A stretch of DNA of 21,964 nt from a virus. This document shows, one piece after another, positions 2 to 18,776 of this stretch. The stretch is from positions 1-21,964 of IMG/VR virus record IMGVR_UViG_3300017746_000192; one strand, written 5' to 3'. Both the position numbers and the translations under genes were made by a program. Under the pieces are notes generated by a model that made no database searches, was not told the origin of the DNA, and saw nothing but the letters and a program-made list of their open reading frames with translations. Each line of letters opens with the position of its first letter. The first letter of the stretch is position 1.

Positions 2-1300
2 TTTGAGAGATATGGAAACAGAACTCTTTCTTCTTTCTTAAGAATGGTAGGTGCTGAGATGCCTTCTAATTCTGACCTTATTAAATGGGCAGAACAAGGT
101 AGATTACACATTAAATATACAGACGTAACTACTAACGCTACTGCTGGACTTGGACAAGGAACATTTACAGTTGCTGACACTTTGATTCCCGCAAACCAGA
201 TAATGGCTGCTGCTGGTACAGCATCAGAAATAGCTATTAGAATAGGTCAAACAGTTATGATATCTGGAAACGCTGGCTTTGCTAGTATTGCTAACAAGGG
301 TGTTGTTACTGCTATTACTGCAAATACTTTCACTTGTTCTTTCTACGAAACAGGAGGATATAGTGGGACAGGTAGTGCTTCAGAAAAACTAAGTGTTTTC
401 ATTTATGGTTCTGAATTTAAAAAAGGAACTGCTGGAATGGAGAAATCTTTAGAGCCATTTGACACGATTCTTGAAAACAATCCTATTATCATCAAAGACA
501 ACTACGAAGTAAGTGGTTCTGATATGGCTCAAATCGGGTGGGTAGAAGTATCTACTGAAGATGGGGCTAATGGATACCTATGGTATTTAAAAGCAGAGCA
601 CGAAACAAGAATGAGGTTTGAAGATTACTTAGAAACTGCAATGGTGGAAGCTGTTAAAGCTGAAGGAGTTGTAGCTAATGGCGCTGCTGCTGGTGGTTTT
701 GTTGGTTCTGAAGGATTATTTTCTGCTATTGAGACAAGAGGTAATATCTTTACAGGTGCTATTACTAATTTAGGAGATTTCGATTCTATTATCGAAAGAC
801 TAGATAAGCAAGGCGCTATTGAAGAGAATGTTCTTTTCTTAAACAGACAAACATCTTTCGAGATTGATGATATGTTAGCTGCTCAGAACTCTTATGGTAA
901 TGGTGGTTCATCTTACGGATTATTTGATAATGACGAAGAGATGGCATTAAACCTAGGATTTTCTGGATTTAGAAGAGCATATGATTTCTACAAGACAGAT
1001 TGGAAATACCTTAACGACCCTACAATGCGAGGTGGTTTAGTTGGTGGAGCTATTGATGGTGTATTAGTACCAGCTGGTTCAACTAATGTTTATGACCAAG
1101 TATTGGGAAGAAACGCTAAGAGACCATTCTTACACGTAAGATACAGAGCTTCTGAAACTGAAGACAGACGTTATAAGTCTTGGATTACTGGTTCTGCCGG
1201 TGGTGCTGCTACTAGCGATGTTGATGAGATGAGAGTTAATTTCTTATCAGAAAGAGCACTATGTACTATGGGTGCAAACAATTTCGTATTGTTCAAATAA
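2..1300 (+). CDS. Major capsid protein, 5'-partial
   Basis: The reading frame is open from base 2, so the gene begins beyond the left edge and the ATG at 44 is internal. The 432 visible residues include conserved-looking segments such as YGNRTLSSFLRM and IKWAEQGRLH just before and after that ATG. I recognise this as the major capsid protein (HK97-fold type) of Bacteroidota podoviruses, including crAss-like phages. It would assemble the icosahedral shell. The C-terminal end is intact (stop at 1298-1300). Counting from the ATG at 44, residues about 64-121 form a beta-rich insertion with the pattern IRIGQTV ... GVVTAIT ... VFIYGSEF, which matches a module found in other virion proteins of this window. 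The gene is followed by a strong terminator, consistent with high expression. The identity rests on remembered family style and genomic position, because no search was possible. Confidence 0.82.
   Translation, partial: FERYGNRTLSSFLRMVGAEMPSNSDLIKWAEQGRLHIKYTDVTTNATAGLGQGTFTVADTLIPANQIMAAAGTASEIAIRIGQTVMISGNAGFASIANKGVVTAITANTFTCSFYETGGYSGTGSASEKLSVFIYGSEFKKGTAGMEKSLEPFDTILENNPIIIKDNYEVSGSDMAQIGWVEVSTEDGANGYLWYLKAEHETRMRFEDYLETAMVEAVKAEGVVANGAAAGGFVGSEGLFSAIETRGNIFTGAITNLGDFDSIIERLDKQGAIEENVLFLNRQTSFEIDDMLAAQNSYGNGGSSYGLFDNDEEMALNLGFSGFRRAYDFYKTDWKYLNDPTMRGGLVGGAIDGVLVPAGSTNVYDQVLGRNAKRPFLHVRYRASETEDRRYKSWITGSAGGAATSDVDEMRVNFLSERALCTMGANNFVLFK
233..406 (+). repeat. Beta-module copy 1 (in capsid protein)
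   Basis: This is a diverged copy of the recurring protein module. It reads IRIGQTV, then GVVTAIT after a short loop, then a strand, a Gly/Ser-rich loop and a final VFIYG strand. The repetition is at protein level, and DNA identity with the other copies is not apparent. It is the most diverged copy together with that in the muzzle-like protein. Confidence 0.4.
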
Positions 1301-1313
1301 TAGTATAATTTAT

Positions 1314-1341
1314 GGAGGGGAGCAATCCCCTCCTATTTTTT
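1314..1341 (+). terminator. Rho-independent terminator after capsid gene
   Basis: This is a perfect 8-bp GC-rich stem (GGAGGGGA / TCCCCTCC) closed by a GCAA tetraloop and followed by TATTTTTT. It lies 13 bases after the capsid stop codon. It is likely to end or attenuate capsid transcription before the next gene. Confidence 0.9.
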
Positions 1342-1360
1342 AAACTTTAAATTAAATCAA

Positions 1361-2104
1361 ATGAAAAAAAAGAAAGAAATAAAGAACCGTATCTACAAGT
1401 TAAGAAACGGTCATCAACCATTAAGTTTTACAATTAATTCTAGAAATACTAGAAGAAAGCCATTGTTATATTTTGATGGTGAACACAATAGACCTTTACG
1501 TTATGCATCCAATCAAAAGAGTCCTTTTGAAGATGAGCAAGACAAAAACGTAATATTAGACCCAGTTATTTTTGAAGATGGAATGTTGTATGTTCCTAAA
1601 AACAATCCTGTATTACAGGAATTTTTACATTACCATCCAGACAATGGTTCTGTTTTTGAGGAAGTAGATAAAGAAGCAGATGCTCAAAAAGAAGTAGATT
1701 ATTTAGAGGTTGAGGCAAAAGCATTTAAACAAGCTGCTGAATTAACTTTAGACCAAATGGAAACTTTAGGTAGAGTATTCTTGGAGCTAAAAGTGGGTAA
1801 TTTGACTACTGCTGAATTAAAAAGAGACATTATACTATTTGCTAAAAACCATCCAGAAGATTTCTTAGATGCTCTTAGCGACCCAATGTTGGAGCTACAA
1901 GACACTGTAGTGAAAGTGTTTGATAAAGGACTGTTAAGTTTAAGAAACAATGGCAAGGATGTTTATTATAATCTTAAAACTAAGAAGACTAAACTTTTAA
2001 CTATTCCTTTTGGTGAAGACCACATTCAAACAGTGGCATCATTCTTCCAGAAAGACGAAGGCATTGATATATACAAAGCCTTCCAAGATATGTTAGAAAA
2101 ATAG
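1361..2104 (+). CDS. Conserved virion-region protein next to capsid gene
   Basis: The 247-residue protein has a very basic N-terminus (MKKKKEIKNRIYKLR), then segments such as SRNTRRKPLLYFD, RPLRYASNQKSPFEDEQD and NPVLQEFLHYHP. A charged helical middle and a C-terminal part with DVYYNL and IPFGEDHIQTVASFF follow. I have seen this type of protein beside capsid genes in marine podoviruses, but I know of no assigned function. A head or head-completion role is inferred only from its place between the capsid terminator and the small virion proteins. No signal peptide or membrane segment is visible. The ATG at 1361 follows an A/T-rich leader with no clear Shine-Dalgarno sequence, which is usual in Bacteroidota. 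Because a terminator precedes it, it needs either readthrough or its own promoter. Confidence 0.75.
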   Translation: MKKKKEIKNRIYKLRNGHQPLSFTINSRNTRRKPLLYFDGEHNRPLRYASNQKSPFEDEQDKNVILDPVIFEDGMLYVPKNNPVLQEFLHYHPDNGSVFEEVDKEADAQKEVDYLEVEAKAFKQAAELTLDQMETLGRVFLELKVGNLTTAELKRDIILFAKNHPEDFLDALSDPMLELQDTVVKVFDKGLLSLRNNGKDVYYNLKTKKTKLLTIPFGEDHIQTVASFFQKDEGIDIYKAFQDMLEK

Positions 2105-2106
2105 GC

Positions 2107-2115
2107 TATCTTTGT
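2107..2115 (+). promoter_or_regulatory. Putative Bacteroidota -7 promoter element
   Basis: TATCTTTGT matches the Bacteroidota -7 consensus TAnnTTTG and lies in the 41-bp gap 30 bases before the ATG at 2146. The same 9-mer recurs in the next large gap (2999-3007). No convincing -33 TTG element is seen at the expected distance. The 9-mer also occurs inside coding sequence at 19548-19556 (+) and 14301-14309 (-), so the call is tentative. Confidence 0.4.
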
Positions 2116-2145
2116 AAGATTATTAACCACTTAATTTTTTAAACA

Positions 2146-2427
2146 ATGCAAAAGTTTTTAAGTATACCAGTTACAAACGAGCAAAATCAATTAGTCTCGT
2201 GTAACGACATTAAATTAATAGAACAAGCTTCTACAACTACCGTAACAATCGCTTATGGTGGTGGAAAAGTTATAACTTTAACTCACGCTGCAGTAGCTGC
2301 TGGGAGTGAAGAAATGAGAGATGCTATTCAGGATGGTGTTGTTCAAGTATTGAAACAACAATGGACTGAAGTTATTTTACAAATGGGTTCTTTACCGAAA
2401 GCGGTAAGCGGAATCGCAATAGCTTAA
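2146..2427 (+). CDS. Small virion-region protein, paralogue without beta-module
   Basis: This is a 93-residue protein of unknown function. It starts MQKFLSIPV and continues with IKLIEQASTTTVTIAYGGG, ITLTHAAVAAGSEEMRDAI and a C-terminal helix with LPKAVSGIAIA. It is clearly a paralogue of the protein encoded directly downstream (2431-2940). Both share the M-x-KFL-x-x-PV start, the LIEQA/LVEQA strand, the LTH-x-x-VA-x-GSE turn and the C-terminal aliphatic tail. The main difference is a segment of about 73 residues present only in the downstream copy. A small structural role such as capsid decoration or cementing is inferred from location and predicted beta content; nothing proves it. It starts 41 bases after the previous gene, with a promoter-like 9-mer in the gap. 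Confidence 0.8.
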   Translation: MQKFLSIPVTNEQNQLVSCNDIKLIEQASTTTVTIAYGGGKVITLTHAAVAAGSEEMRDAIQDGVVQVLKQQWTEVILQMGSLPKAVSGIAIA

Positions 2428-2430
2428 GAT

Positions 2431-2940
2431 ATGGAGAAGTTTTTAAACGTACCCGTATTTAAATTGTTAGCTAGCGGAACAACTGATGATGATGGATCAC
2501 CTACTGACTTAATAGACTCAGGTGCTGATTTTGTTGCAGATGGCGTTCAAGTAGGAGACATTGTTCATAATTCAACAGATAATACCTACCATACAGTTAC
2601 ATCAGTTAGTGCTACAGAATTAGGCGTAACTGGCGGTGGAATAGAAACTAGCAAGGCTTATTTTATTCATTCAGCTAATATTAGCAATAGCCAATTAGTT
2701 TCTGGATCAGGAGTTTTATTAGTAGAGCAAGCTACCACTAGCACTGTTACTATCACCTATGACGGAGCTGCATCAGCTGACGTTGTTACTTTAACACACG
2801 TTCCTGTTGCTTCAGGAAGTGAAGCAGTTAGAGATTTGATTGAAGATGCAATAGTTAAAGGCTACTCTTCTAGTTGGACAGATGTTTCTAACGATGTATC
2901 TACTTTACCAAATCAAGTAATAGGAATATCTATAGGATAA
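2431..2940 (+). CDS. Small virion-region protein, paralogue carrying beta-module
   Basis: This 169-residue protein starts three bases after the stop of its 93-residue paralogue. Residues 1-11 and about 85-169 align with the whole of the upstream protein (MEKFLNVPV; LLVEQATTSTVTITY; VTLTHVPVASGSEAVRDLI; final VIGISIG). Residues about 12-84 are an extra domain containing DSGADFVADGVQVGDIV, HTVTSV and a final AYFIH strand. This domain closely resembles residues 112-177 of the connector-type protein at 3023-3952. The pair therefore looks like a duplication in which one copy gained or the other lost a domain. Function is unknown, and a minor head or decoration protein is a reasonable guess from position. 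A terminator follows 22 bases downstream. Confidence 0.8.
   Translation: MEKFLNVPVFKLLASGTTDDDGSPTDLIDSGADFVADGVQVGDIVHNSTDNTYHTVTSVSATELGVTGGGIETSKAYFIHSANISNSQLVSGSGVLLVEQATTSTVTITYDGAASADVVTLTHVPVASGSEAVRDLIEDAIVKGYSSSWTDVSNDVSTLPNQVIGISIG
2470..2673 (+). repeat. Beta-module copy 2 (inserted in small paralogue)
   Basis: This is one of the two best-preserved copies. The pattern is SGTT, then DSGADF, GVQVGDIV, a Thr/Asp turn, HTVTSV, a strand and YFIH. It matches copy 3 (3356-3553) along its length, including SGTT, the D-x-x-A-x-F segment, VGDIV and the N-x-TD turn. Confidence 0.7.
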
Positions 2941-2962
2941 CATTTTATCTAATATATTATAC

Positions 2963-2995
2963 AAGAGCTTCTATCACTAGAGGCTCTTTTTTTTT
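2963..2995 (+). terminator. Rho-independent terminator between head and tail blocks
   Basis: The stem AAGAGCTTCT / AGAGGCTCTT is 10 bp with one G-T wobble, has a 6-base ATCACT loop, and is followed at once by a T-run reaching 2995. It sits 22 bases after the stop of the small paralogue and ends the head-gene transcript. Confidence 0.88.
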
Positions 2996-2998
2996 GCT

Positions 2999-3007
2999 TA
3001 TCTTTGT
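2999..3007 (+). promoter_or_regulatory. Putative Bacteroidota -7 promoter for tail block
   Basis: A second intergenic copy of TATCTTTGT lies directly after the terminator T-run and 15 bases before the ATG at 3023. Terminator followed by promoter is the expected arrangement at a transcription-unit boundary. No clear -33 element is visible, because the upstream region is occupied by the terminator. Confidence 0.5.
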
Positions 3008-3022
3008 ATTAAAAGATTTTAG

Positions 3023-3952
3023 ATGATAAATTCTGTTAGAAATACTGTTCTTTCTATACTGAATAAAAATAATTACGGATACATCTCTCCAGCTGACTTT
3101 AACCTTTTTGCAAAACAAGCGCAGCTAGATATATTTGAAGATTACTTTTACCAGTATAATACTCAAATAAACAAAGAGAACAATAGACTAGGTAGACTAT
3201 CCGGCACAGGTTATGCAGATATTAAAAAGGGATTAGAAGAAGTATTAGATAGTTTTTCAGTTACGTCATTCTTAACTAGAGTTAATGCTAATATTTATTC
3301 GCTTCCTTTAGATTATTATCTTATTAATAAAATATTCTATTATCCTAATCAATTAACTTCAGGAACTACAACAGGAACTACCGCAGGAAAACTAGATGAT
3401 GTTGATGCTAATTTTTTAGGTGTAGTAAGTGTAGGTGACATAGTAATTAACACCACTGACTCTACATCTGCTTTTGTAACAGCAGTAGCTAACACCTCAT
3501 TAATTTTAAGTAGTGACATAATGGTCACTGCAGAAAACTATGCAATTTATAACAATAAAAATATTGCAGAGGTAGAAAGAGTAAGTCAAGATAAAATATT
3601 TTATTTAACTAACTCTAACTTAACAGCTCCTACTACACAATATCCTGCATATGTATTAGAGGCTAATAATATTACTGCTTACCCAACTACTATATCTGGA
3701 GTGGCTGACTTACAAACTCAATATGTTAGATATCCAAAAGACCCTAAGTGGACTTACCAAACTTTAACAGGAGGTCAACCATTGTTTGACCAATCTCAAG
3801 CAGATTTTCAAGACTTTGAATTACCTTTATCTGATGAAACAGATTTGGTTGTTAACATCTTAAAGTATGCTGGACTATCAATTAGAGAGGCTGAAGTTGT
3901 TCAAGCGGCAACCACACAAGAAAACCTAGAAACCATACAAGAAAATAGCTAA
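3023..3952 (+). CDS. Head-tail connector / tail ring-type protein
   Basis: This 309-residue protein begins the tail block. The N-terminal helices contain a segment of the form GYISPADFNLFAKQAQLDIF, followed by YSLPLDYYLI, a beta-module at residues about 112-177, then AEVERV, PAYVLEANNITAYPTT, YVRYPKDPKWTY and a C-terminal helix after FELPLSDETDLVVNILKYAG. I recognise this arrangement from structural proteins of crAss-like and flavobacterial podoviruses, encoded just upstream of the tail adaptor. A ring or connector role between portal and tail is inferred. Its stop codon overlaps the next start by one base (TAATG), which indicates translational coupling. The module appears inserted between the DYYLINKIFYY strand and the EVERV strand and has a near twin in the protein at 2431-2940. 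Confidence 0.72.
   Translation: MINSVRNTVLSILNKNNYGYISPADFNLFAKQAQLDIFEDYFYQYNTQINKENNRLGRLSGTGYADIKKGLEEVLDSFSVTSFLTRVNANIYSLPLDYYLINKIFYYPNQLTSGTTTGTTAGKLDDVDANFLGVVSVGDIVINTTDSTSAFVTAVANTSLILSSDIMVTAENYAIYNNKNIAEVERVSQDKIFYLTNSNLTAPTTQYPAYVLEANNITAYPTTISGVADLQTQYVRYPKDPKWTYQTLTGGQPLFDQSQADFQDFELPLSDETDLVVNILKYAGLSIREAEVVQAATTQENLETIQENS
3356..3553 (+). repeat. Beta-module copy 3 (in connector protein)
   Basis: This well-preserved copy reads SGTTTGTT, DVDANF, VSVGDIV, a N-x-TDST turn, AFVTAV, LILSSDI and a final ENYAIY strand. It is the best representative of the pattern in this window. Confidence 0.7.
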
Positions 3953-4875
3953 TGGCATATATATCACAATATCAATATTATGAAAATGGAGGCAATACTC
4001 CTTCAAATGCTAACTGGGGTTCTTATCAGTATGTTTCTTTGCAAGATATTGTAAACAACTATATGTTAATGTATGTTGGTAACAACCAGCTTATTAATAA
4101 TATAGATAGATATCAAGTTTTGTTTCACGCTAAAAGAGCAATACAAGAACTTAATTATGATGCGTTTAAAGAAATTAAAATACTTCAACTAAATGTTGGT
4201 GATAACTTAAGATATATATTACCTTCTGATTTTGTTAACTGGGTTAGAATATCTATATATCACAACGGAACTTTGTTTCCTTTAAGTGAAAATGTTCAAA
4301 CTAATTATGCTTCTGCTTACTTGCAAGACAACAACAACAACTTATTGTTTGATTCAAATGGTAATGTGCTAAGTCCTGAAAACTCTAAGATTACACAAGA
4401 CAGAATAGCCGGCCTTACTAGAAGCCAATACTTAAATGAGACTAGCCCTTATTACGGATACTATGGTTTTTGTTTAGAAGGGTGTTGGTATTTTGACTTC
4501 TCTATTGGTGGTGCTTACGGATTAAATACAGAAACAGCAAATGCTTTACCTACTTTTAAAATAGATAAAAAAGGTGGCGTAATTAATTTTAGTTCTGGAG
4601 CTGGTAATAAGTCAGTTGTATTAGAATATGTTTCTGACGGTATGGAAAATGGAGATGATTCATTGGTAACTGTCAATAAAATGTTTGAAGAGTTTTTGTA
4701 TTCTTATATAACTTACTCTATATTAAATACAAAACTAAATGAACCAGAGTACATTATAAATAGATACAGAAAAAGCAAATCAGCACTATTAAGAAATGCC
4801 AAAATAAGAATGAGTAACATTCACCCAGGAAGACTACTTATGAATTTAAGAGGTCAAGATAAGATTATAAAGTAA
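3952..4875 (+). CDS. Tail adaptor / connector protein (podovirus type)
   Basis: The protein has 307 residues. Recognisable segments are YQYVSLQDIVNNYML and YVGNNQLI, a helix with FHAKRAIQELNYDAFKEIK, the beta turn ILPSDFVNWVRISIYHNG, and C-terminal helices with FEEFLYSYITYSILN and YRKSKSALLRNAKIRMS. This combination of an N-terminal helical bundle with an LPSDFVNWVRI strand is typical of tail adaptors in crAss-like and flavobacterial podoviruses and is functionally comparable to P22 gp4-type connectors. That comparison is from memory of family style and is not a computed alignment. The gene starts within the stop codon of the preceding connector gene and ends one base before the start of the muzzle-like gene. 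This places the three products in one assembly step at the portal. Confidence 0.72.
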   Translation: MAYISQYQYYENGGNTPSNANWGSYQYVSLQDIVNNYMLMYVGNNQLINNIDRYQVLFHAKRAIQELNYDAFKEIKILQLNVGDNLRYILPSDFVNWVRISIYHNGTLFPLSENVQTNYASAYLQDNNNNLLFDSNGNVLSPENSKITQDRIAGLTRSQYLNETSPYYGYYGFCLEGCWYFDFSIGGAYGLNTETANALPTFKIDKKGGVINFSSGAGNKSVVLEYVSDGMENGDDSLVTVNKMFEEFLYSYITYSILNTKLNEPEYIINRYRKSKSALLRNAKIRMSNIHPGRLLMNLRGQDKIIK

Positions 4876-4876
4876 T

Positions 4877-7800
4877 ATGCAATTAAATAGTTTTTTCTTC
4901 AAAGGCATAATGAATAAGTCTAGTGACGAAAGGATACTACCTCCTGGAGAGTATGTAGACGCACTAAACGCTAGACTAGGCTCAACAGAAGATTCTGAAA
5001 TAGGAAGTGTAGAAAACACTAAGGGTAACACAAAGCTAACCAAAATCACTAATCAAGGAGTGGCATTAAGCTCTAACGCTGTTTGTATTGGTTCTTATGC
5101 AGATGAAAGTGATGAAACTATTTATTGGTTTGTGACTGATCCTTCAGTAGTTGACTTAATTATTTCTTTCAATGTAAAAACATCTGTTACTATATACCAC
5201 ATTATATCTACTAGTGTATTAAACTTTAACCCAAGTAATTTAATAACAGGGGTTGAGTTAATAGATAGGTTTTTAATATTTACAGATAATTTAAATCCAC
5301 CTAGAAAAATAAATGTAGATAGGTCTTATGATTTTCCTGTTGGTGGAGTAGACCAAATAACAGAAGAAGAAATTAATCTTATAGTTAAGCCACCTATTAG
5401 CCCACCTACTTTTACTTTGTCTAGTGCTGATAATGACGACCAAAGTTTTTTTACAGACAAGTTTATTTCTTTTGCTTATAGGTTTAAGTATGAAGATGGA
5501 GAGTACTCTGCGCTATCTCCATTTAGCCCTCCTGCTTTTGAGCCTGAAAACCCTGATTTAGTTGAGGTCGATTTTAACACTATTAAGAACGAATCAATGG
5601 TTAACGCATACAATGCAGCAACTGTGTTTTTTAATACGGGTTCTAATTTAGTCAAAGAAATAGAAGTTTGTTATAAAGAAAGTTCAAGCACTGTTATTAA
5701 AGTAATTGACAAGTATAATAAATCTGACTTAGGATGGGCTGACAATTCAACACAATCTATATTTTTTAGAAACAAAGAAGTATTTAGAGTATTATCTGCT
5801 AATGAAAGTTTAAGACTGTATGATAATGTTCCTTTAAAAGCGAAAGCTTTAACTAGTTCTGGAAACAGATTAATGTTTGGTAATTATGTAGATGGATACG
5901 ATATGAAGTCTGCTGACGGAAATGACGTTAAACTAGATTATGTTACAAGTTTAGTTGCTAATCCTGCAGTAAGATTAGACGACAATGAAAATGAAATTAT
6001 TTTAAGTGTAGATGGTGAGTTTGTTTCTTCAGATTATCAAGTTTTAAATGGTAGTGCTACGCCAAGCACAGTAAGTGTAGATAATTCAAAAGGTGTTTTT
6101 ACTTTTGAAGATACGTTGGGTAATCCTGTTAATTTTTTACAGGGAGATTTTATAACTTTTAATTGTGAACTTAAGAGTTACGCAACTGGTGGTAATATAT
6201 ATAACCAAAATGCTTCTGTTTTAAATTTAACCAGACCAACAGGTGGTTTCACATTAAGCATAACCTCTACTGTTCAACTTACCAATACTTATGGAGATTT
6301 AGCTTCTTTTGTAGGTAGTGTAGATTTTGAAAACTTAATTGGAACGGGGTTAGCTACAGCAACACCTGTATACAAGCCATTTAGTGACGCATCAACAGGA
6401 AATACAGCAACAGACTTTATTAATAATAGTGTAATAAGTAGCCCCGCTACCAATAGCGTAACTAGTAGCGCAGCAACTCCTGTAAATTCAGCTGTTCCAA
6501 ACGCAGCTGCTGCAGGTTCAACGCCAGTGTCTCCAGCTTATCCAACTGGTCAAACAGGTTTGTTAGAAGCTTTTGATATTGCTACACCAACTCAAGTTAC
6601 TTTACAATCTTTAATGATGGTTTATGAAACAGGGTCTACAAAATCATTTGAAGGGTTTGAGTTTTTAAGTGCAAATTTTGCATTTGACACAAAAAGAAAC
6701 AAAGAGAGTTTACATAGTAACAGAGACTATGACTTAGCTATGGTTTATATGGATGACTATGCAAGGTCAAGTACTGCTTTAGTAAGTTTAGATAGTAGTA
6801 TTAATGTGCCTGCTTCTAATTCTATATTAATAAACAAAGCACAAGTAAATATACCAGTTAGTCAAAAAGCTCCTTCTTGGGCTAAGTATTATAAATTTGC
6901 AATCAAACCATCTAAATTAAATTACGATACTATATTTATTATTAGAGCTGAACCAGACCTGGATGACACAACTCAGTTTTGGTGTGAACTAGAAGGAGAA
7001 ACCGCACAAAAAATTGTTGAAGGAGAAACATACACTGTGAAAAGAGATATTGATGGCGCTAAAGGCTCTTATGTAGAAGCTACTTGTTTAGCTAAAAGCA
7101 CATCTCCAAATATAGATGACCAATCTGCTACTTACCCGGGACCTGGGGTATATGCTAAGTTTTCTCCTGGAAACGAATACAGAATAGATCAACCTGGTAA
7201 AATAAATGAAAAAGGAATTAATAAAGAAAAAAACTCAATAGTTGCTAGCAGAGGTATTGACGCTACGGTTTCATTAATTGATAGTTTTACAGAAACCACA
7301 ATTGAAGAAGGTACTAATGTAACAATTAAAATAACTTGTGAAAGACCAGAGGCTCAAATAACATACACCACTAATCCAGAGAATAAAAATAAATTTAGTG
7401 AGTTAAATATAACCAGAACAGCTAATAAATCTTATAGCACTGGAGCTAACCTTCAAGCAAATTTGCAATTGATGGTTAATGATCAATTTGTAAATAGTCA
7501 AAACTTCTTTCCTTCTAATAGTATTAATTACGCTGGTAATCAAGGAGAAAAATTTAGGTTTCAATTAACAAATGACCTTATTAAAAACGATGACACACCA
7601 CAAGTTCCTGATGTAGATTCTCAAAATTACGGAATTCACCAAGTGAGTTTTAATACTCAAGACGAAAACGGAAATACTCAACAAGCTCTCGGAATTAAGT
7701 CTAATTTTAGGATGAGAATTGGAACTACTACTCAAGGGAAGTCTAAAGTTTCTATAAAGGTTAAATTAAGCAATATTCCAGATGGTTTGTTTGTTTTAGA

Positions 7801-9943
7801 AACAGACGGTGAAGATACTGCAGACGAGTTTTACTATGAAGGAAATGAAGTATTTGACATAAACGGTGACTTACACGATGGTAACCTACAAAACCAAAAC
7901 ACTTGGGCTTTTTATGACAATGCTCAAAACAATGCTTATAGAAGTTCTCAAGGGTTGCCTGCCTCACAATTTTATGGTGGAAACTTAGCACTCACTAGTA
8001 CAGGTGGAACTGGAGATGATGCACCATTTTCTGTAGGTGATATCGTTAATGTGCAACAAACTAATTTATCGCCAACTAACCCTCAGTATAATGGCACTCA
8101 TACTGTATTAGAAAAACCAGATGCTAATACCATAGTGTTAGACGTTGCTTTTGGAACTGCAACTCCTGTTGAAGGAGGGTCAGTTAATGCAGATGCTATT
8201 GTGCTTACTAACTTTTTTAATTGTTACTCTTGGGGTAATGGTATGGAAAGTTGTAGGATTCAAGACTCATTCAAAGAAGATGCTCTTAATATTGGTGAAA
8301 GAGTATTTACTTTATCTGAGGGTGAGTTTAGACAGAAACGAAGAAACGCTTCTATTACTTATAGTGGTATATATAATGATGAAACTAAACTAAATAGAAC
8401 TAACGAATTTAATTTAGGTATACTTAACTTTAAAGATTTAGACGAAGACTTTGGTAATATAGAACTACTTAAAGCAAGGCAGAATGATTTATTAGTATTA
8501 CAAGAAGATAAGATATCTTATGTTTTGGTTAATAAAAACGTACTTACTTCAGCAGATGGTTTATCTAACGTAACATCAACACCTACTATACTAGGAAATC
8601 AAGTATCTCGTTTAGAAGAATATGGTATTAGCCATAATCCAGAAAGTTATGCAGAGTTTGGTTATGATAAGTATTTTACGGATGCCAAGCGTGGTGCAGT
8701 AATTAAGTTAAGCGGTAGCTCTTATTCTAATGAATCACTAGAGGTTATATCTCAGGCTGGAATGAGGTCATACTTTAGAGATTTATTTATAGATGATTTT
8801 AATACTCAAAAAATAGGAGGATATGATCCTTATATGAATGAGTATGTATTAAGCAGCAATAATAGGACATTGCCAGTAGAGCCTCAGACTGTAAGCTGTG
8901 GGTCAGAACTAGAGTTTAATAACCAAACAGAAAGCTTTACTTACACCGTCAAGTTAGGGGCTTCTATGGGAACTACGGATATTGATTACAACGTAACTAG
9001 TGGAAACATAAACATATCAGTTACTTACAATGGTGCTACTACTAGTTCGGGAAGTGTTACAGGAAGCGGAACTTTTCAGTTTAACAAAAACATCCCTTCT
9101 ATTGAAACTGCTGTTATTACAGTAGCTGTGGTGGGAGTCTCTGCAAACTATTCAATTACTGCTCAGTGCCCAACAGCAGCTGTTATTAACGTATATCAAA
9201 TATGTTTGAATAGCGAATTTACCGGACTACCTCCAACCATACATAACCAATATGAATGGGCTTCTAGTAATTTAACACCTTCTGTGTCTAGCCCACTTAT
9301 AAACCAACCTGTGACTTTTACAAATGTACCAACAGGATCAGGTGTCGGAACACAAAGAGTGGCTCAGTATCAAGTATATACTTCTCAAGTAGCTATTGGA
9401 ACAACACCAACTCCTGAGGCGGTTGTTACAGTTAGGTCAGCTAAAACAGGTTCTGATTCATTTGATTTTAATACTAATAACGGAAACAGATTATTACACT
9501 TATTAAGTAATACTACTTATGCAAATACACAAACGGATATTAATGCATTAATAGCTGCTGCTAGCGGAAATAATTTAACTATATCTAACACTTCAAGTGG
9601 TGTTTTTGAAGGTTCTTTTAATTACGCTAATCCAGACTCAACCCCAACTAATTACACTAATTTGTATTTAATATACGACTACAGAAGTTCAACTCAAGTT
9701 AATTTATCTTTTGGGTCAACTCAAAGTATAGTTTGCGGAGGAACTGGAACACTAGGCCCATACTTCTTAGATGCGGCAATTCCTTCTGAAGCAACAGCTA
9801 TTTATAATGACGCTGCGATGACAGTACCCGCAGCTGCAGGATATTATTTATATGTTAATCCAAATCCAACAGTGGCTGATACGTACTGGTTAAGACAAGA
9901 TGCAAATGGAGTTATTGTTCAAGTAAGTTTATGTTCAAGTTAA
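4877..9943 (+). CDS. Muzzle / tail stabilisation-like protein, 1688 aa
   Basis: The N-terminus (FKGIMNKSSDERILPPGEY, then DALNARL and IGSVENTKGN) is the signature start of the large stabilisation or muzzle protein of crAss-like and related podoviruses, which closes the tail end below the connectors. Residues to about 1325 form the expected beta-rich body, ending in YFTDAKRGAVIKLSG, ISQAGMRSYFRD and GGYDPYMNEYVLS. Residues about 516-560 are a Ser/Ala/Thr/Pro-rich low-complexity stretch. Residues about 1048-1110 hold a diverged beta-module (FSVGDIV ... HTVLEK). From about 1330 come accessory domains: an Ig-like stretch (FTYTVKLG to SITAQCP), a variable beta region, and a C-terminal domain (residues 1627-1688) starting GPYFLDA and ending with a Cys. 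Such C-terminal domains are usual in surface-exposed phage proteins and may bind the host envelope. Three bases separate it from the next gene, which looks like a detached continuation. Confidence 0.75.
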   Translation: MQLNSFFFKGIMNKSSDERILPPGEYVDALNARLGSTEDSEIGSVENTKGNTKLTKITNQGVALSSNAVCIGSYADESDETIYWFVTDPSVVDLIISFNVKTSVTIYHIISTSVLNFNPSNLITGVELIDRFLIFTDNLNPPRKINVDRSYDFPVGGVDQITEEEINLIVKPPISPPTFTLSSADNDDQSFFTDKFISFAYRFKYEDGEYSALSPFSPPAFEPENPDLVEVDFNTIKNESMVNAYNAATVFFNTGSNLVKEIEVCYKESSSTVIKVIDKYNKSDLGWADNSTQSIFFRNKEVFRVLSANESLRLYDNVPLKAKALTSSGNRLMFGNYVDGYDMKSADGNDVKLDYVTSLVANPAVRLDDNENEIILSVDGEFVSSDYQVLNGSATPSTVSVDNSKGVFTFEDTLGNPVNFLQGDFITFNCELKSYATGGNIYNQNASVLNLTRPTGGFTLSITSTVQLTNTYGDLASFVGSVDFENLIGTGLATATPVYKPFSDASTGNTATDFINNSVISSPATNSVTSSAATPVNSAVPNAAAAGSTPVSPAYPTGQTGLLEAFDIATPTQVTLQSLMMVYETGSTKSFEGFEFLSANFAFDTKRNKESLHSNRDYDLAMVYMDDYARSSTALVSLDSSINVPASNSILINKAQVNIPVSQKAPSWAKYYKFAIKPSKLNYDTIFIIRAEPDLDDTTQFWCELEGETAQKIVEGETYTVKRDIDGAKGSYVEATCLAKSTSPNIDDQSATYPGPGVYAKFSPGNEYRIDQPGKINEKGINKEKNSIVASRGIDATVSLIDSFTETTIEEGTNVTIKITCERPEAQITYTTNPENKNKFSELNITRTANKSYSTGANLQANLQLMVNDQFVNSQNFFPSNSINYAGNQGEKFRFQLTNDLIKNDDTPQVPDVDSQNYGIHQVSFNTQDENGNTQQALGIKSNFRMRIGTTTQGKSKVSIKVKLSNIPDGLFVLETDGEDTADEFYYEGNEVFDINGDLHDGNLQNQNTWAFYDNAQNNAYRSSQGLPASQFYGGNLALTSTGGTGDDAPFSVGDIVNVQQTNLSPTNPQYNGTHTVLEKPDANTIVLDVAFGTATPVEGGSVNADAIVLTNFFNCYSWGNGMESCRIQDSFKEDALNIGERVFTLSEGEFRQKRRNASITYSGIYNDETKLNRTNEFNLGILNFKDLDEDFGNIELLKARQNDLLVLQEDKISYVLVNKNVLTSADGLSNVTSTPTILGNQVSRLEEYGISHNPESYAEFGYDKYFTDAKRGAVIKLSGSSYSNESLEVISQAGMRSYFRDLFIDDFNTQKIGGYDPYMNEYVLSSNNRTLPVEPQTVSCGSELEFNNQTESFTYTVKLGASMGTTDIDYNVTSGNINISVTYNGATTSSGSVTGSGTFQFNKNIPSIETAVITVAVVGVSANYSITAQCPTAAVINVYQICLNSEFTGLPPTIHNQYEWASSNLTPSVSSPLINQPVTFTNVPTGSGVGTQRVAQYQVYTSQVAIGTTPTPEAVVTVRSAKTGSDSFDFNTNNGNRLLHLLSNTTYANTQTDINALIAAASGNNLTISNTSSGVFEGSFNYANPDSTPTNYTNLYLIYDYRSSTQVNLSFGSTQSIVCGGTGTLGPYFLDAAIPSEATAIYNDAAMTVPAAAGYYLYVNPNPTVADTYWLRQDANGVIVQVSLCSS
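8018..8206 (+). repeat. Beta-module copy 4 (in muzzle-like protein)
   Basis: This diverged copy at residues about 1048-1110 reads FSVGDIVNV, a longer polar loop, YNGTHTVLEK, NTIVLDVAF and a final AIVLTN strand. The GDIV and THTV parts fit the pattern, while the loop lengths differ from copies 2 and 3. Confidence 0.4.
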
Positions 9944-9946
9944 ATT

Positions 9947-10699
9947 ATGGCAGAAGTAACCTTATCATATAGCCCAGCAGTAAAAGGATGGCCTTCCTTT
10001 TATTCATTTATACCAGAGTATACTCAAGGTATGAACAACTATTTATATACATTTAACAATGGTCAATTGTATAGGCATAACACAAACCCTTTAAGAAACA
10101 ACTTTTATGGGGTTCAATACAACACCACTATTAAAAGTGTATTTAATAAAGGTCCATTGGAGAACAAATTATTTAAAACACTTATTTTAGAATCGGATGC
10201 TCCTTGGTCAGCTACTTTAGCAACTGACTTACCTCAAGTAGGTAGTATTGCAGATACTTATTTTGAAAAGAAAGAAGGAAATTATTTTGCTTTTATCAGG
10301 TTCCTGGAAACAGATATTAATTTGTTAATGAGATATGCTAATGGAATAGCAAATGTAGCTACTGTTGATGCTACCACACCTGCTGCAACTACACTAACTT
10401 TTGCTAGTTCGGTAAACATAGGTAGTATTATTAGCATAGGAGATATGGTTTATTATGGGTCGACCCCATCATTAGGCGGTGTAGTAACAGCATTAACTGG
10501 TCAAGTTGTTACTATAAACACAACAATTGCAGGCGCAAGCGCCCCTAGTAATGGTGATTTTATACTATACGTCAAGAATACAGTAGCAGAATCTCACGGT
10601 GTAATGGGGCATTACTGTGAGTATGAACTAACTAATACTTCAACTTCTAAAGTAGAATTATTCTCCGTTGGCTCAGAATCAATGAAAAGTTTCCCGTAA
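9947..10699 (+). CDS. Virion protein resembling detached muzzle C-terminus
   Basis: The 250 residues begin with a short strand followed by KGWPSFYSFIPEYTQGMNN and YLYTFNNGQLYRHN. That motif I associate with the end of the large stabilisation/muzzle proteins, directly after the GGYDP-type strand. Here it starts a separate gene three bases after the 1688-residue protein, whose own body stops at that strand and then continues into extra domains. The rest includes LESDAPWSATLATDLP, a beta-module at residues about 148-210, and a final strand pair with GHYCEYELTN and VELFSVGSES. The likely role is part of the same tail-end assembly, possibly completing its fold in trans. The split is inferred from motif order. 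The adaptor and muzzle genes upstream support a tail function. Confidence 0.65.
   Translation: MAEVTLSYSPAVKGWPSFYSFIPEYTQGMNNYLYTFNNGQLYRHNTNPLRNNFYGVQYNTTIKSVFNKGPLENKLFKTLILESDAPWSATLATDLPQVGSIADTYFEKKEGNYFAFIRFLETDINLLMRYANGIANVATVDATTPAATTLTFASSVNIGSIISIGDMVYYGSTPSLGGVVTALTGQVVTINTTIAGASAPSNGDFILYVKNTVAESHGVMGHYCEYELTNTSTSKVELFSVGSESMKSFP
10388..10576 (+). repeat. Beta-module copy 5 (in 250-aa tail protein)
   Basis: At residues about 148-210 the copy reads VNIGSIISIGDMVYY, then GGVVTALTGQVVTINTTI, and a final GDFILYV strand. The fit to the pattern is good at GDMV and VVTAL. It is flanked by the strands FIRFLETDINLL and GHYCEYEL, which could be contiguous in a fold without it. Confidence 0.5.
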
Positions 10700-12911: not shown

Positions 12912-15900
12912 GTGGAAGAATTAAAAGCACTTTACGAAAGTTATATAGCTCAAGGGTTGCTTAGCAGTGAAACAACATTTGAACAGTTTTTAAATGCAGA
13001 TGATTCTATAAAGGAAAATTTACACAAACAAGGGGTAGACTCTAAAGTAATTAGTAATCAAACTGATTTGGAAACTTTTAAGTCTGCTTGGGGTGATGTA
13101 AAAAAAAAAGATTCAGATTTACCTGTTCAGGAGGAAGTTACGGAATCTATTACAGAAGTGGAAACACCAGATACTTCATTGGACTCCTCAGAAGAGGTAG
13201 TTGAATTAGAAGAGCCTGAAGCAATACCTGACCCAGTAGACACAGAATCTAAAGTTTTAAGTGAATTACAAATAAATCCTGAAGAGTTTAAGAGTTGGAA
13301 AGAAGAAAATTTAAGGCCAGAATCAAAGGCTTATGACTTCTTTAAAAACATATTATTAACCGATGAAGGGGAACAGTTTGAAGATGAAGAGAAAATACAA
13401 AAACAAGTTTCCTCATATTTAGCTCAAAAACTAAATAAAAATTTAGAATTAATAGACGAGTCAGATGAGTTTTCAAGAAAGTCTTTAATAGAACAAAATA
13501 AAAAAGATTCTCAAACTCTTTTAGATAACTTAAAGTCATACAATAAAGAAGCTGTTTTAGACGAAAAAGAAGATAGACGTAAACTACTAGAGAGACAATC
13601 AAAAGGTCTTTTAACTAGAGGAGCCTCAACAGGTCTTGATTTATTAAAAGCTGGAGCTAATGCTGCTGTTCAATATTCAATGGGAACGGCAGCGGCACTT
13701 TTTGCAGAAGCTGATGCATTACTAACATCGGCTGGCGCAGACAAGAAAGGGGCATTGGCTGGGATATCTGAAATGTTTTTAGATGCTGGTCAAGCTTGGG
13801 ATTTAGATTTAGGCCAGGTTAAAAGGTCTGCTTTTACACAAGGAAAAGAAGTAATGTACGGAGGAAAGGAATATATTGTTTCTGACACTGGAGTTGTTTA
13901 TGATGCGGAAACAAATATAAGAGTAGATGATATTATTCCAGAAAGTGATGTTATACAAATAGCAAGAAAAGCAGCTTTAATAGAAGATGATGTTACTAAT
14001 GTAGACTTAGGATCTAGCTTGTCTGGGATAGGGAGTACTTTAGTAAATCTTTATGGTTTAATAAAATCAGGGAAGGGTGTCTCAAAAGCTCTTGGGGTTA
14101 ACCCTAAACTAGGAATGGGATTAGCTTCTTTTTCAAGTACTGTTGCAGATAATATGGCTTCTGTGAAAGATGACCTTGTGGCTCAAGGTGTGAGTGAAAC
14201 AGAGGCTAACGATAAAGCTGTTATATTTGGTAATGCTATAGCTACTCTTGATGGTCTTTTTTCTGGTTTAGCTGGAAGCAACGAGAAACTATTGGGGTCT
14301 ACAAAGATAGTTAAAGATGCTTTATTTGACTTAGCTAAAAAAAAGGGTAAGGATTTTTCAAAAGAACAGCTTAAATCAAAAGCAAAAGACTTAATTAAGG
14401 AAAACGCAAAAGAATTATTCATAGAAGAAATACCTGTTCTTTTATCTGAAAAAGGTATAAATAGTGTAATAAATTACGCAGCTGGGGTAGATGCTAGGTC
14501 TGGTATTGAAGATTTAAAAAGAGCTGACTTATATGAAACCACTCTCTTGACTGTGGGGGCAACGACCGGAATAGGTTCTAAAAAACTTCTTACAAATAAT
14601 CAAAGAAATGATATTGTTAGACAGTTAGCACAAAACACAGATGGCTTAGAAAAAGCAGGCACTAAACTAGTAGATGACGGTCTTCTTACTAAAGATGAGG
14701 CTGCTAAAGCTATAAACGAAGTTAAAGCAATGGAATATGCAGAAGCTAAAACTTCAGGAGCTGTTAAGATTACTGAAAATATGTTAGAAGCAGCTGCTTT
14801 AATAACGAAAAAAGAACAATTAACAAAAGAAAAAGAACAAACAGACCCTTCTCTAGTAGGCGACATTGATAATAGAATAGCTTCTATTAACAAGCAACTG
14901 GAACAAATCAAAGAAAAAGATGACGCAGACGTAAGGGAAATTATTAAAAACGAAAAAGATGCCATTCAAAAGCAAGAAACAGGAGATATACTTGATGCTG
15001 AACCAGCCGAAAGTGTACAAGAAGTGGAAGAAGAAGTACGGGAGCCTTCTATCGAAACGGAAGAAGCAGTAATAAAAGACTCTCAAATTCCAACAAGCAA
15101 GGAAATATATACTATTGAAACAGAAGAAGGTGAAGGAGTTAGAACCGTAGAGATAACTATTAATAAAGATGGAAGTAGAAGTGTAGTGCAAAAAGTAGAT
15201 GGTGACGTGGCCTCATCTGATAATATACCCGCAGCTAATACTTTAAACAACAATGAATATGTAGAAGGTTCATTTGGTCCTATAATTGGAGAGCCTCAAA
15301 TATTACCAATGGAAGAGGTTATGAATCCTAAAATGAAGGAGAAATTAACTACCAAACAAAAACAAGAACTAGGTATAGAAGAAGCTCCTAGTTTGCAAAC
15401 TGTAGAAGAAGATATTATCATATACAAAGGAACGGGTGGTAAAAGAGATGCTGCTGGTAATTTAAAAACCAGACACCCTGGTGCTAAAGGTTCTTTCTTT
15501 AGTGCGGATAAAAACATAGCAGAGACCTATAAAGGAGAAGGTGAAATTGTTGAAGATGTAATTCCTGCTGGTGCAACAATAGAAGAAGTTCAAGTAGATA
15601 CTAAAGGATTAACTCCTGAACAATTTAATAAAGCAGAAGAAGATGCCATAAATGCATCTGAAGCAGATGTTGTTAAGCTTATCACTATTGAGAATAGAGG
15701 TAAAGGAACAATGAAAGAGGTTCAATACATTGTAAAATCAAAACCATCTCAAAAAACAACTAAACAAACATCTAAAGCAGAGTCTCTTAAAAAGAGAATT
15801 AATAAATTATCTAAGTCACCTAATGTAGAGGGAACTGTTGCTCAGTCTGTTAAACAGTTTTTAAGAATTAATCCTGGAACAGTTTCAGATATTGATGCTT

Positions 15901-18776
15901 ATATATCTCAAGCTGAATCTATGGTAGAAGGGCTTAAGAAAAGTAGGACTTTTAAAGGAGATGTTAAGATAGCTGAATCAGTAGACATTAAAAAAGTAGA
16001 CGAGTACAGTAGTAAAGAATTAAAAGTTCAAGAACAAACACTTCGTGAGCAAGAGGCTAAAGCATTTGAAGAATTAACAGGGTTAAGTTCTGAAGAATTA
16101 TCTCTGGGTGAAATGAGAGAAATCTTAAATAGTGTAGATGAAGAAAGCGTAAAAACACCAAAAGAGATAAAATTAAAATCTGAGAAAAAAGCAGACATTA
16201 TATCAAGGGGAATTAAAAAAGCTTTCTCCACTTATAGTGCGGTAATAAAAAAACAAATAAAGACAGGTATTGATCCTTTTACTGGTGAACAAGTAAAAAT
16301 ATCTGCTAATGACCAAAAAATTATTCAAAACTTTTTAAATGTTGACTTAGATAATTTAAGTCCTGCTGAACAATTGAAGGCACTAGACGCTTTAACCAAC
16401 TTCGCAACCAACCAAACTACGGGAGGTATGAATGCAACTATATCTCAAGATAAAGGAGTAAAAGAAGCAAAAGGATTAGTAAAGAAAGGCCTTAAAGCTA
16501 AATCATTAAAGTTTTTAGGAAGCAAAGGATTGTCTCAAGGTTGGATAAAATATATATCCTCTATTCCGCTAGCATTTGAGTTTATGTTTAAGGGGCAGTC
16601 AAAAGGTTTGCAGTTTCAAAAATCAAGTGGTTTTGGAGAGATAACTAATGGAGCTTCTAAAGCTGATAAAGAAGCTAATCAAGTTTTTGATAATTATTTC
16701 AATAAGTTTTATAAAAAGTCTAAACCAAATGGACAAGCTTTTAACACAGCAGAAAATGATGTAGAAAGAGGGATGTTTGCTTTTATGAGAAGAACTGTTG
16801 ATGGAACTTTAGAGGAGCAACAACAAGAGTTTAAAAGAAGAAAAGGTTTAATAGAACAAAGTATAGATAAGCTAAAAGAGACAGGAGAAACTAACGATCA
16901 AAATAAAGCCAAGGTTTATGAAGAGGTATATAATAAAATATTAAAAGAAGCAAACAATATAAATGATGTTGATTCTAAAGTGGACCCATTAAATAAAGAA
17001 GCAGTTGACTGGGTTACTAATGTGTGGGCGTCTCGTAGAGATGAGTTAGCAGATATATCTTTAAATGTATACAACAGAATATTAGGTAAAGACATAAACT
17101 ATACTCCAGACTCATTTACTTTGGTTGAAACACCTAGTTCAGAAACAAACATAGGTGATCCTATTTTTGAAGGCACAAGCGAAGTTATTTACGATAAAGA
17201 AACAGGAGTTTTGAAACCTAAAAAACCTAGCTTTGTTTTACCAGAAAACAGGATAATTAATTTAGGATTTGATTCTCAAAATAGTAGAAATTTAAACGCT
17301 GCTCTAACTGACATATATACTGCTGAAGGTATTCAACAATTAAAAGGATTTGTAAATTCAGATGCTTACTCTAAGATAATACCAAATAAGTCTGATAGAG
17401 ATTTAATTACAGAAAGATTTAAAAGTTACGTAGACGCTAAAAGAGGTGTTTCTTCTATAAAATCTAAAAATCAAAAATCTTTAAGTATTTTAAATAAATT
17501 TTCATCATTAGGTGTTGGTAGAGCATTAGGTGGTCCTACTCAGTTTATAAAACAGTTAGTTCCGTTAATAAACACAATGTCTAATGCTGGCCCAGTCTCT
17601 ACTTTAAAAGGATTAACCCTTTTAACAAACCCTGCGGTTAATAAATTTTTAAACAACAGTGGGTATGGAATTGCCAATAGAGGGTTGCAATCTTTAAGCT
17701 CTTTAGAATCTACTAATTCTAAAATAGAGAATGCTGCTAAAAGTATTTTTGGTAAAGCGTTAAATCAATTAAACAAAGCTAATCAAGCTTATCTTCAAGC
17801 TTTTGTAGCTAACCCAGATAAGGTAGCAGCTAGAGCTTCTTGGATGTCATACTATACTAACTCCTTAAAAAAACAAGGAATAAACCCAAGTGGAATTGAC
17901 TGGAGCACTCATAAAATGAATAAAGAAGCCGGAGATTTTGCAGAGCAACAGGTAGGTAGACAACAAAACGTAACCGATATTGATTTACAAGGTGAAATAT
18001 TTTCTAATAAAAAACCCTCCGTTCAAATAGCAAGAAAAATATTTTTACCTTTTGCTAATTTCTTACTAAATCAAAAAACAAGAATGTACAGTGACATAAG
18101 TACGTTAAGCAATAAAATGTCTACATCTCAAGATAAAACTTCAGCAGCTAAGTCTATTGGAGGCTTAGCGGCAGAAACTATAGCTTTCAATGCAATTGGA
18201 TTAGTTTTACTACAAATGTTAGATAAATTTACTTTAGAAGATGATGATGATGAGGCTAAATTAAAATCATTGGAAAACAGAAAAAAGGGGAGAGTTGGAA
18301 ATATTGTTAAGGATATTATATCTCCACTTCCTGTAACCGATGTCCCAACTATTGAATTTGCAAATTATGTATTAAGACAATTTGCTGAAGAAGAACCGGA
18401 AGAAGAAATTCAGTTATCTACTAGTAAAAGAACTGCTCAACCAAAGAAAAAAGAGCCTTTTCAATTGTTTTCAGAAGACAGAAAATCTTATGTTGATAAT
18501 ATGGGTGTTTTAGGGATAAACATTAAAAATGCAGGAGTGTTATATGATTTAGGCAGAATGGCAACTAAAGGAGAGTATCAAAAAGAATATATGGGAAAAG
18601 AAGGTAAAGTTAAAAAGATTGACCCTAAATATAAAGATGCTGCTAAAATTAATTTTATGGCTTATTTTTTATACTCTATAGGTCTTTTACCATCTGAAAC
18701 TGCTACTATAGTTAGGGGAAATGTTAAAGATATGCAAAGAGCAAAAAAAGAAATTAAACTATCTACAAGTAGATAA
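12912..18776 (+). CDS. Giant ejection/cargo-type virion protein, 1954 aa
   Basis: The gene starts with GTG at 12912, four bases after the previous stop. The N-terminal motif (ALYESYIAQGLLSSETTFEQF, then a TDLETFKSAW segment) recurs at the start of giant virion proteins of Bacteroidota phages. An acidic, low-complexity linker follows (residues about 70-115). Next come a helical region with apolar Ala/Gly-rich stretches (around AGANAAVQYSMGTAAALF), a second acidic linker, an ADP-ribosyltransferase-like segment (residues about 835-943), and a long Lys-rich helical C-terminal half. That half includes WVTNVWASRRDELADIS and GRALGGPTQFIKQLVPLIN, with an apolar stretch near residue 1755 (ETIAFNAIGLVLLQML). 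The architecture resembles large polyvalent or cargo proteins packed in podovirus heads and injected with DNA. I looked for RNA polymerase DxDGD, peptidoglycan-hydrolase and protease motifs and found none that were clear. The exact role is unknown. Confidence 0.68.
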   Translation: MEELKALYESYIAQGLLSSETTFEQFLNADDSIKENLHKQGVDSKVISNQTDLETFKSAWGDVKKKDSDLPVQEEVTESITEVETPDTSLDSSEEVVELEEPEAIPDPVDTESKVLSELQINPEEFKSWKEENLRPESKAYDFFKNILLTDEGEQFEDEEKIQKQVSSYLAQKLNKNLELIDESDEFSRKSLIEQNKKDSQTLLDNLKSYNKEAVLDEKEDRRKLLERQSKGLLTRGASTGLDLLKAGANAAVQYSMGTAAALFAEADALLTSAGADKKGALAGISEMFLDAGQAWDLDLGQVKRSAFTQGKEVMYGGKEYIVSDTGVVYDAETNIRVDDIIPESDVIQIARKAALIEDDVTNVDLGSSLSGIGSTLVNLYGLIKSGKGVSKALGVNPKLGMGLASFSSTVADNMASVKDDLVAQGVSETEANDKAVIFGNAIATLDGLFSGLAGSNEKLLGSTKIVKDALFDLAKKKGKDFSKEQLKSKAKDLIKENAKELFIEEIPVLLSEKGINSVINYAAGVDARSGIEDLKRADLYETTLLTVGATTGIGSKKLLTNNQRNDIVRQLAQNTDGLEKAGTKLVDDGLLTKDEAAKAINEVKAMEYAEAKTSGAVKITENMLEAAALITKKEQLTKEKEQTDPSLVGDIDNRIASINKQLEQIKEKDDADVREIIKNEKDAIQKQETGDILDAEPAESVQEVEEEVREPSIETEEAVIKDSQIPTSKEIYTIETEEGEGVRTVEITINKDGSRSVVQKVDGDVASSDNIPAANTLNNNEYVEGSFGPIIGEPQILPMEEVMNPKMKEKLTTKQKQELGIEEAPSLQTVEEDIIIYKGTGGKRDAAGNLKTRHPGAKGSFFSADKNIAETYKGEGEIVEDVIPAGATIEEVQVDTKGLTPEQFNKAEEDAINASEADVVKLITIENRGKGTMKEVQYIVKSKPSQKTTKQTSKAESLKKRINKLSKSPNVEGTVAQSVKQFLRINPGTVSDIDAYISQAESMVEGLKKSRTFKGDVKIAESVDIKKVDEYSSKELKVQEQTLREQEAKAFEELTGLSSEELSLGEMREILNSVDEESVKTPKEIKLKSEKKADIISRGIKKAFSTYSAVIKKQIKTGIDPFTGEQVKISANDQKIIQNFLNVDLDNLSPAEQLKALDALTNFATNQTTGGMNATISQDKGVKEAKGLVKKGLKAKSLKFLGSKGLSQGWIKYISSIPLAFEFMFKGQSKGLQFQKSSGFGEITNGASKADKEANQVFDNYFNKFYKKSKPNGQAFNTAENDVERGMFAFMRRTVDGTLEEQQQEFKRRKGLIEQSIDKLKETGETNDQNKAKVYEEVYNKILKEANNINDVDSKVDPLNKEAVDWVTNVWASRRDELADISLNVYNRILGKDINYTPDSFTLVETPSSETNIGDPIFEGTSEVIYDKETGVLKPKKPSFVLPENRIINLGFDSQNSRNLNAALTDIYTAEGIQQLKGFVNSDAYSKIIPNKSDRDLITERFKSYVDAKRGVSSIKSKNQKSLSILNKFSSLGVGRALGGPTQFIKQLVPLINTMSNAGPVSTLKGLTLLTNPAVNKFLNNSGYGIANRGLQSLSSLESTNSKIENAAKSIFGKALNQLNKANQAYLQAFVANPDKVAARASWMSYYTNSLKKQGINPSGIDWSTHKMNKEAGDFAEQQVGRQQNVTDIDLQGEIFSNKKPSVQIARKIFLPFANFLLNQKTRMYSDISTLSNKMSTSQDKTSAAKSIGGLAAETIAFNAIGLVLLQMLDKFTLEDDDDEAKLKSLENRKKGRVGNIVKDIISPLPVTDVPTIEFANYVLRQFAEEEPEEEIQLSTSKRTAQPKKKEPFQLFSEDRKSYVDNMGVLGINIKNAGVLYDLGRMATKGEYQKEYMGKEGKVKKIDPKYKDAAKINFMAYFLYSIGLLPSETATIVRGNVKDMQRAKKEIKLSTSR
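15411..15740 (+). other. ADP-ribosyltransferase-like segment in giant protein
   Basis: Residues about 835-943 of the 1954-aa protein contain YKGTGGKRD, then TRHPGAKGSFFSADKNIAETY, EEVQVDTKGL, ADVVKLITI and KEVQYIVKS. The order Y-x-G, then G-S-FFS with a following A-x-x-Y, then a terminal E-x-Q-Y strand fits ART-like folds. In classical R-S-E enzymes the first strand carries Arg; here it is Lys (YKG), although an Arg occurs four residues later. The segment may be inactive or a diverged subfamily. It is flanked by acidic linkers, consistent with an independent domain. Confidence 0.42.

Follow-up and report, generated by a model that had tools for sequence, protein, structure and literature searches.

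Genes and candidate segments in the window

The stretch of DNA analysed in this study, referred to here as the window, is the 21,964-nucleotide (22-kb) IMG/VR fragment IMGVR_UViG_3300017746_000192, whose source is a crass-like virus. In its capsid protein it shares 62% identity with MW202828, 50% with Maribacter phage Panino, and 47% with the Flavobacterium elemo phages. The protein encoded at 4877-9943 is highly similar to the muzzle-type family phrog_14478 (E 2.6e-206). The neighboring protein (9947-10699) matches the Pfam family PF25729 crAss_MUZ_C (E 2.6e-16), which identifies it as the C-terminal portion of the muzzle, detached from the rest. By these two matches, the window encodes a muzzle homologue, as expected of the crass-like virus group. 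The C-terminal portion is encoded by its own gene in the window, MW202828, phi13:2, and Panino, and is fused in elemo, phi38:1, and Gundel_1, an arrangement that amounts to the split or fusion of a tail-tip gene across the relatives.

A very large protein of 1954 aa (12912-18776) lies downstream of the tail genes, where crassvirus cargo proteins sit. Farther along are a 126-aa protein (18846-19226) that by eye resembles HNH endonucleases with zinc-binding cysteines and, on the minus strand, a 78-aa protein (20149-20385) that by eye resembles VRR-NUC nucleases. The minus-strand genes around the latter look replication-type, and 21394-21963 resembles a helicase C-terminus, again by eye.

A sequence-only reading of this DNA had proposed that one beta-module recurs as an internal insert in at least five virion proteins and represents a mobile structural domain, which might bind glycans or the host surface or mediate self-association. 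All five segments translate in frame, as that reading described. Together with one paralogue, they are assigned as follows.

113..439, + strand: E-loop insertion (I-domain) region of the capsid protein, vertically inherited
2146..2427, + strand: module-less paralogue of the small virion protein, 93 aa, a natural empty-site comparison
2473..2673, + strand: module copy 1, 67 aa, in the small virion protein 2431-2940, inserted after MEKFLNVPVFKLLA
3359..3553, + strand: module copy 2, 65 aa, in the ring-type tail protein 3023-3952 (phrog_14543)
7985..8209, + strand: a different insert, about 75 aa, in the muzzle protein 4877-9943
10340..10576, + strand: fixed barrel domain of the muzzle C-terminal protein 9947-10699, a probable remote relative of the module

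The ring-type assignment of the 3023-3952 protein rests on its PHROG match and on gene order, which was compared with that in PMC10172136, because PDB sequence searches with alignments of the module, the capsid segment, the 10388 segment (the domain at 10340-10576, previously delimited as 10388-10576), or the ring-type protein gave no significant match.

Two homologous copies inserted in different proteins

The segments formerly delimited at 2470-2673 and 3356-3553 are clearly alike, as had been claimed. Comparison of copy 1 with copy 2 by blastp gave an E value of about 1e-7, and profile-profile comparison (hhalign) of the modules from the ring-type protein, the small protein, and the muzzle of relatives gave 98% probability (E 6e-16 to 4e-14), whereas reversed or column-shuffled controls for the same modules reached at most 0.8%. 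An independent profile built from 31 modules, all from viruses outside this clade, was run on the six frames of the window. It recovered the copy in the ring-type protein (E 2.7e-22) and that in the 169-aa small protein (E 2.1e-14), with the best shuffled segment at E 0.11. Beyond these two copies, it gave no significant match in the six frames, and the capsid and muzzle segments were unmatched. As judged from these comparisons, 2473-2673 and 3359-3553 are one homologous module.

When set against the sequences of homologues of their host proteins, both copies are inserts. The adjacent module-less paralogue at 2146-2427 is 48% identical to the 2431-2940 protein over 82 aa, the module being excluded, and copy 2 lies in the turn that joins two predicted strands of the ring-type protein. 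The module is missing from the ring homologues of MW202828 and of the outgroups Panino, elemo, phi13:2, phi38:1, and Gundel_1, as well as from those of six IMG/VR relatives (L107, L109, L141, L143, L230, and L246), in which it sits in the small protein instead. The two genes therefore gain and lose it independently of each other.

The slot between the gene at 1361-2104 and the ring gene (2104-3022) is fast-changing, and in relatives it holds one or two small proteins with 0, 1, 2, or 3 modules. Two close relatives (L008 and L021) carry an unrelated-looking 91-aa protein in this slot, and in these viruses whole-gene replacement accounts for part of the small-protein variation.

The muzzle, capsid, and 10388 segments

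The idea of five copies in this virion stands for 2473-2673 and 3359-3553, but profile and hhalign comparisons did not bear it out for the other three segments as recent copies. While the ring and small-protein modules reached 98% in the profile-profile comparison, the muzzle segment scored 0.2-3% and the capsid segment 0.5-3% against the modules; the 10388 segment scored 22-39% against the small-protein and muzzle modules and 0.7% against the ring modules.

At E below 0.001, a profile of the muzzle segment (7985-8209) retrieved nothing except further muzzle proteins. This segment is an insert, but by these scores another one than the module. The true module is found in the muzzle proteins of seven relatives (L034, L050, L062, L064, L065, L069, and L073), about 20 residues away and just upstream of the region matching the insert of the window, with a conserved QNQ motif separating the two sites. 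Inserts of more than one kind are thus accommodated in this part of the muzzle.

The capsid protein of phi-crAss001 possesses a beta-barrel I-domain in its E-loop (PMC10172136), and the capsid segment of the window corresponds to this known crassvirus domain; it is old and ancestral, and no copy of the module. The segment is in place in every outgroup capsid aligned (Panino, phi13:2, elemo, phi38:1, and Gundel_1). The I-domain (PMC10172136) resembles the module in being a small beta-barrel insert of a virion protein in the same virus group and in its GQ/GD-V and VTA pattern. However, it is fixed in all relatives and immobile, and it fails profile comparison with the module.

The outgroups phi13:2 and Panino likewise have the 10388 segment in place, which is, therefore, not a recent insert. 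The description as an internal insert thus fits the ring, small-protein, and muzzle segments, but not the capsid and 10388 segments. Against the independent module profile the 10388 segment gave E 1.3; the reverse search with a 10388 profile retrieved modules at E 0.003 upward, with decoys at 1.0. Modules made up 27 of the 30 top non-self matches of this profile, relative to a base rate of 2.8%, although these matches are mutually related and a binomial value overstates the case for kinship. The model of the whole 9947-10699 protein was poor (pLDDT 54.5), and only residues 132-210 (pLDDT 80-90) were used. Their predicted strands (132-144, 147-152, 167-170, 175-184, 187-191, and 205-209) are in the same order as those of the module, and in both a loop of the same length, 14 residues, precedes the strand next after the GD motif. 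On the basis of these models, 10340-10576 is probably an older, fixed, and non-mobile remote relative of the module fold.

Predicted fold and family identity

AlphaFold modeling of the 65-residue ring copy with 54 modules gave a confident six-stranded barrel (pLDDT 97.1, pTM 0.83) with strands at residues 6-8, 11-13, 28-31, 36-43, 47-50, and 60-64. Conserved positions include L12, D14, F19, V23, G26, D27, N31, V40, L48, Y61, and I63. Viral proteins in BFVD match the model at TM 0.90-0.96 with 49-54% identity, and below these top matches are many tail fibre proteins at TM about 0.65-0.8. Among solved structures, Foldseek found no significant match (best E 0.066). The lists obtained with the module and with the 10388 model overlap in F1/V1-ATPase subunits, UBA1/UBA6, and the phi92 endosialidase, none of them significant. 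The N-terminal beta-barrel of the F1/V1-ATPases, which is among the nearest solved folds to both models, shows fold resemblance only, at E values no better than 0.06 and with moderate TM.

The module fits none of the sequence families of Pfam, NCBIfam, or the PDB, and scans of its members against PHROGs, Pfam, and NCBIfam gave isolated weak matches. The Pfam Ig-like and BACON models had no match among 34 or 55 module members. Five typical motif strings were not found in the literature searched, although such a search says little about novelty. When single modules were compared with 50,697 phage records by tblastn, MW202828 alone was matched; either this search is too insensitive or the module is absent from isolates.

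Distribution and mobility of the module

Restricted scans of IMG/VR with module alignments returned 226 and 307 matching stretches, and bacterial genome contigs contained 4. The 250 fetched loci place the module in about 18 protein families, with 1-6 copies per protein; these families were split by blastp, so some of them are possibly remotely related. The identifiable hosts are all of virion type, and include ring and muzzle proteins, a baseplate wedge protein (L114), a tail fibre of phrog_12296, a tail fibre with Peptidase_S74 (L241), and an Mtd_N protein. Since the host proteins were sampled through the module itself and its flanks are mostly structural regions, their restriction to virion proteins is no strict test. 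The reading as a mobile structural domain of virion proteins is strongly supported for the module of the small protein and the ring-type protein, given its many host families, its multiple insertion sites in a single family, its variable presence among close relatives, and its occurrence in muzzle, tail-fibre, and baseplate proteins of relatives; it does not extend to the vertically inherited capsid and 10388 segments. Module diversity is highest outside this clade.

Two MAG proteins deserve mention. One, from a Gammaproteobacteria MAG contig (L171:3466-6942) and of host or provirus origin, is 1159 aa long and contains six module copies; the other, from a Deltaproteobacteria MAG (L169:5770-7983), combines a Major tropism determinant N-terminal domain with two modules.

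In 2.5 Mb of fetched sequence, all 406 matches lie in sense open frames, three of them short ones at contig ends, and no intergenic or antisense copies were found. One tail-protein family has at least five module insertion sites. In another such family, the host gene of L176 is 96.0% identical in DNA to that of L197/L181 over 2,235 nt, yet the module is present in one only: a stretch of roughly 70 residues with the module stands against a 10-residue linker. Across this family, 27 module-less sequences have the linker and 8 have a version of 80-82 residues at the site. At the L176/L197 junction, the one clean junction, no terminal repeats or target duplication were seen, and the linker was replaced rather than split. 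Modules from unrelated host genes share up to 73-79% DNA identity over 117-173 nt. On a tree of 89 ring proteins (quick IQ-TREE, module removed), the ring module requires at least 2 changes, the copy number in the small protein at least 16, and the state of the muzzle at least 6. As the module comes and goes between close relatives, these viruses appear to trade a ready-made part.

Discussion

The homologous module has a confidently predicted fold, is inserted in frame in many unrelated host proteins, and has been gained and lost repeatedly. We consider it reasonably probable that it is a promiscuous add-on barrel of virion proteins, which is inserted in loops, spread by recombination, and decorates surfaces, likely for weak attachment in many copies. 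According to this model, a stand-alone six-stranded beta-barrel of about 65 residues would enter in frame, at a loop or turn, into virion proteins that are not related in other respects, with recombination exchanging a short loop for a loop plus module. The host protein would tolerate the newcomer because it folds on its own, and the module would be kept because it decorates exposed surfaces of the head, the tail barrel, the muzzle, and the fibres. By analogy with Ig-like domains and BACON, its most likely role may be to attach the particle weakly, through many copies, to polymers on the host surface or outside the cell. Environmental phages might even use the module as an adhesion domain for general purposes, which would make it a non-Ig equivalent of the Ig-like domains of cultured phages; we hold this attractive possibility only tentatively.

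The module could instead be a structural spacer or clamp, whose barrel adds bulk, contacts between neighboring subunits, and particle stability and has no external ligand. Core assembly proteins such as the ring-type protein and the muzzle are among its hosts, and the tandem copies in L041, L114, and L171 would suit spacers. However, fast gain and loss between near-identical viruses and the very different hosts are difficult to reconcile with a required contact, and we regard this explanation as rather unlikely, if the most serious of the competitors. A less likely one traces all five segments to a single ancestral crassvirus barrel (capsid I-domain, muzzle barrel), with the mobile module arising from its duplication among virion proteins. 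It is in keeping with the retrieval of modules by the 10388 profile, with the best non-self matches of the capsid profile, which are module and 10388-type segments (E 0.15-0.5), and with the match of the outgroup capsid protein L004 to the module profile (E 0.016-0.043). Nevertheless, profile-profile comparison fails for the capsid and muzzle segments, the greatest module diversity lies outside this clade, and small barrels converge on a GD.V ... VT.V pattern, as the weak KOW-domain match of the 10388 profile illustrates, all of which makes such a common origin improbable.

Palindromic elements of Rickettsia provide a comparison for selfish DNA that enters reading frames. A small element of this kind, tolerated since it encodes a foldable segment, would explain in-frame, sharply bounded insertions in many genes as well as the DNA similarity between modules of unrelated genes. 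It is very unlikely here, as the matches are confined to sense frames, no end repeats or target duplication were seen at the L176/L197 junction, and the module is strongly conserved at the protein level. Least credible of all is a chance likeness among low-complexity, T/S/V-rich sequences. The composition is indeed biased, and the muzzle and capsid segments of the window have no statistical link to the module, but the ring, small-protein, and muzzle modules far outscore their reversed and shuffled controls, and specific positions (L12, D14, F19, G26, D27, N31, L48, and Y61) are conserved; for the two main copies, these controls and positions refute chance.

Ig-like domains are found on virion proteins of tailed phages, with T4 Hoc as an example (PMC10385173). 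They are similar to the module in being small add-on beta domains of variable number in many unrelated virion proteins. In contrast to them, the module is a predicted barrel rather than an Ig sandwich, has no sequence relation to them in Pfam, and enters core proteins (ring and muzzle) besides fibres. The BACON repeats of crAssphage (PMC6949934) are likewise beta domains of a crass-like phage that occur in tandem, change rapidly in copy number, and have been proposed to bind surfaces. However, no module matches Pfam BACON, and the module is spread over many genes whereas BACON is confined to one protein. Domain mosaicism of phages (PMC10684548), in which otherwise unrelated proteins have a fragment in common through recent exchange, is strongest in tail and receptor-binding proteins; the module, unlike those cases, also enters a ring-type protein, the muzzle, and a head-side small protein. 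That survey covered known domains in representative phage proteins, whereas the module family has no Pfam or NCBIfam entry. Promiscuous add-on virion domains are, therefore, already known in the form of Ig-like domains, BACON, and mosaicism, but the fold and the insertion places of the module differ.

Among phages, swapped domains have been recognized chiefly in receptor-binding, lysis, and replication proteins. In a crass-like virus, the module adds the ring-type tail protein and a small protein on the head side, with the muzzle as a further host in relatives. A name for the family would make it possible to annotate a segment that recurs in hundreds of contigs from uncultured viruses and would account for size differences between homologous virion proteins, and the module offers a defined 65-residue part for binding tests. 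If the adhesion reading is true, head-side proteins, tail barrel, muzzle, and fibres would give one virion many weak attachment points, and the gain and loss of modules would tune where particles linger before infection.
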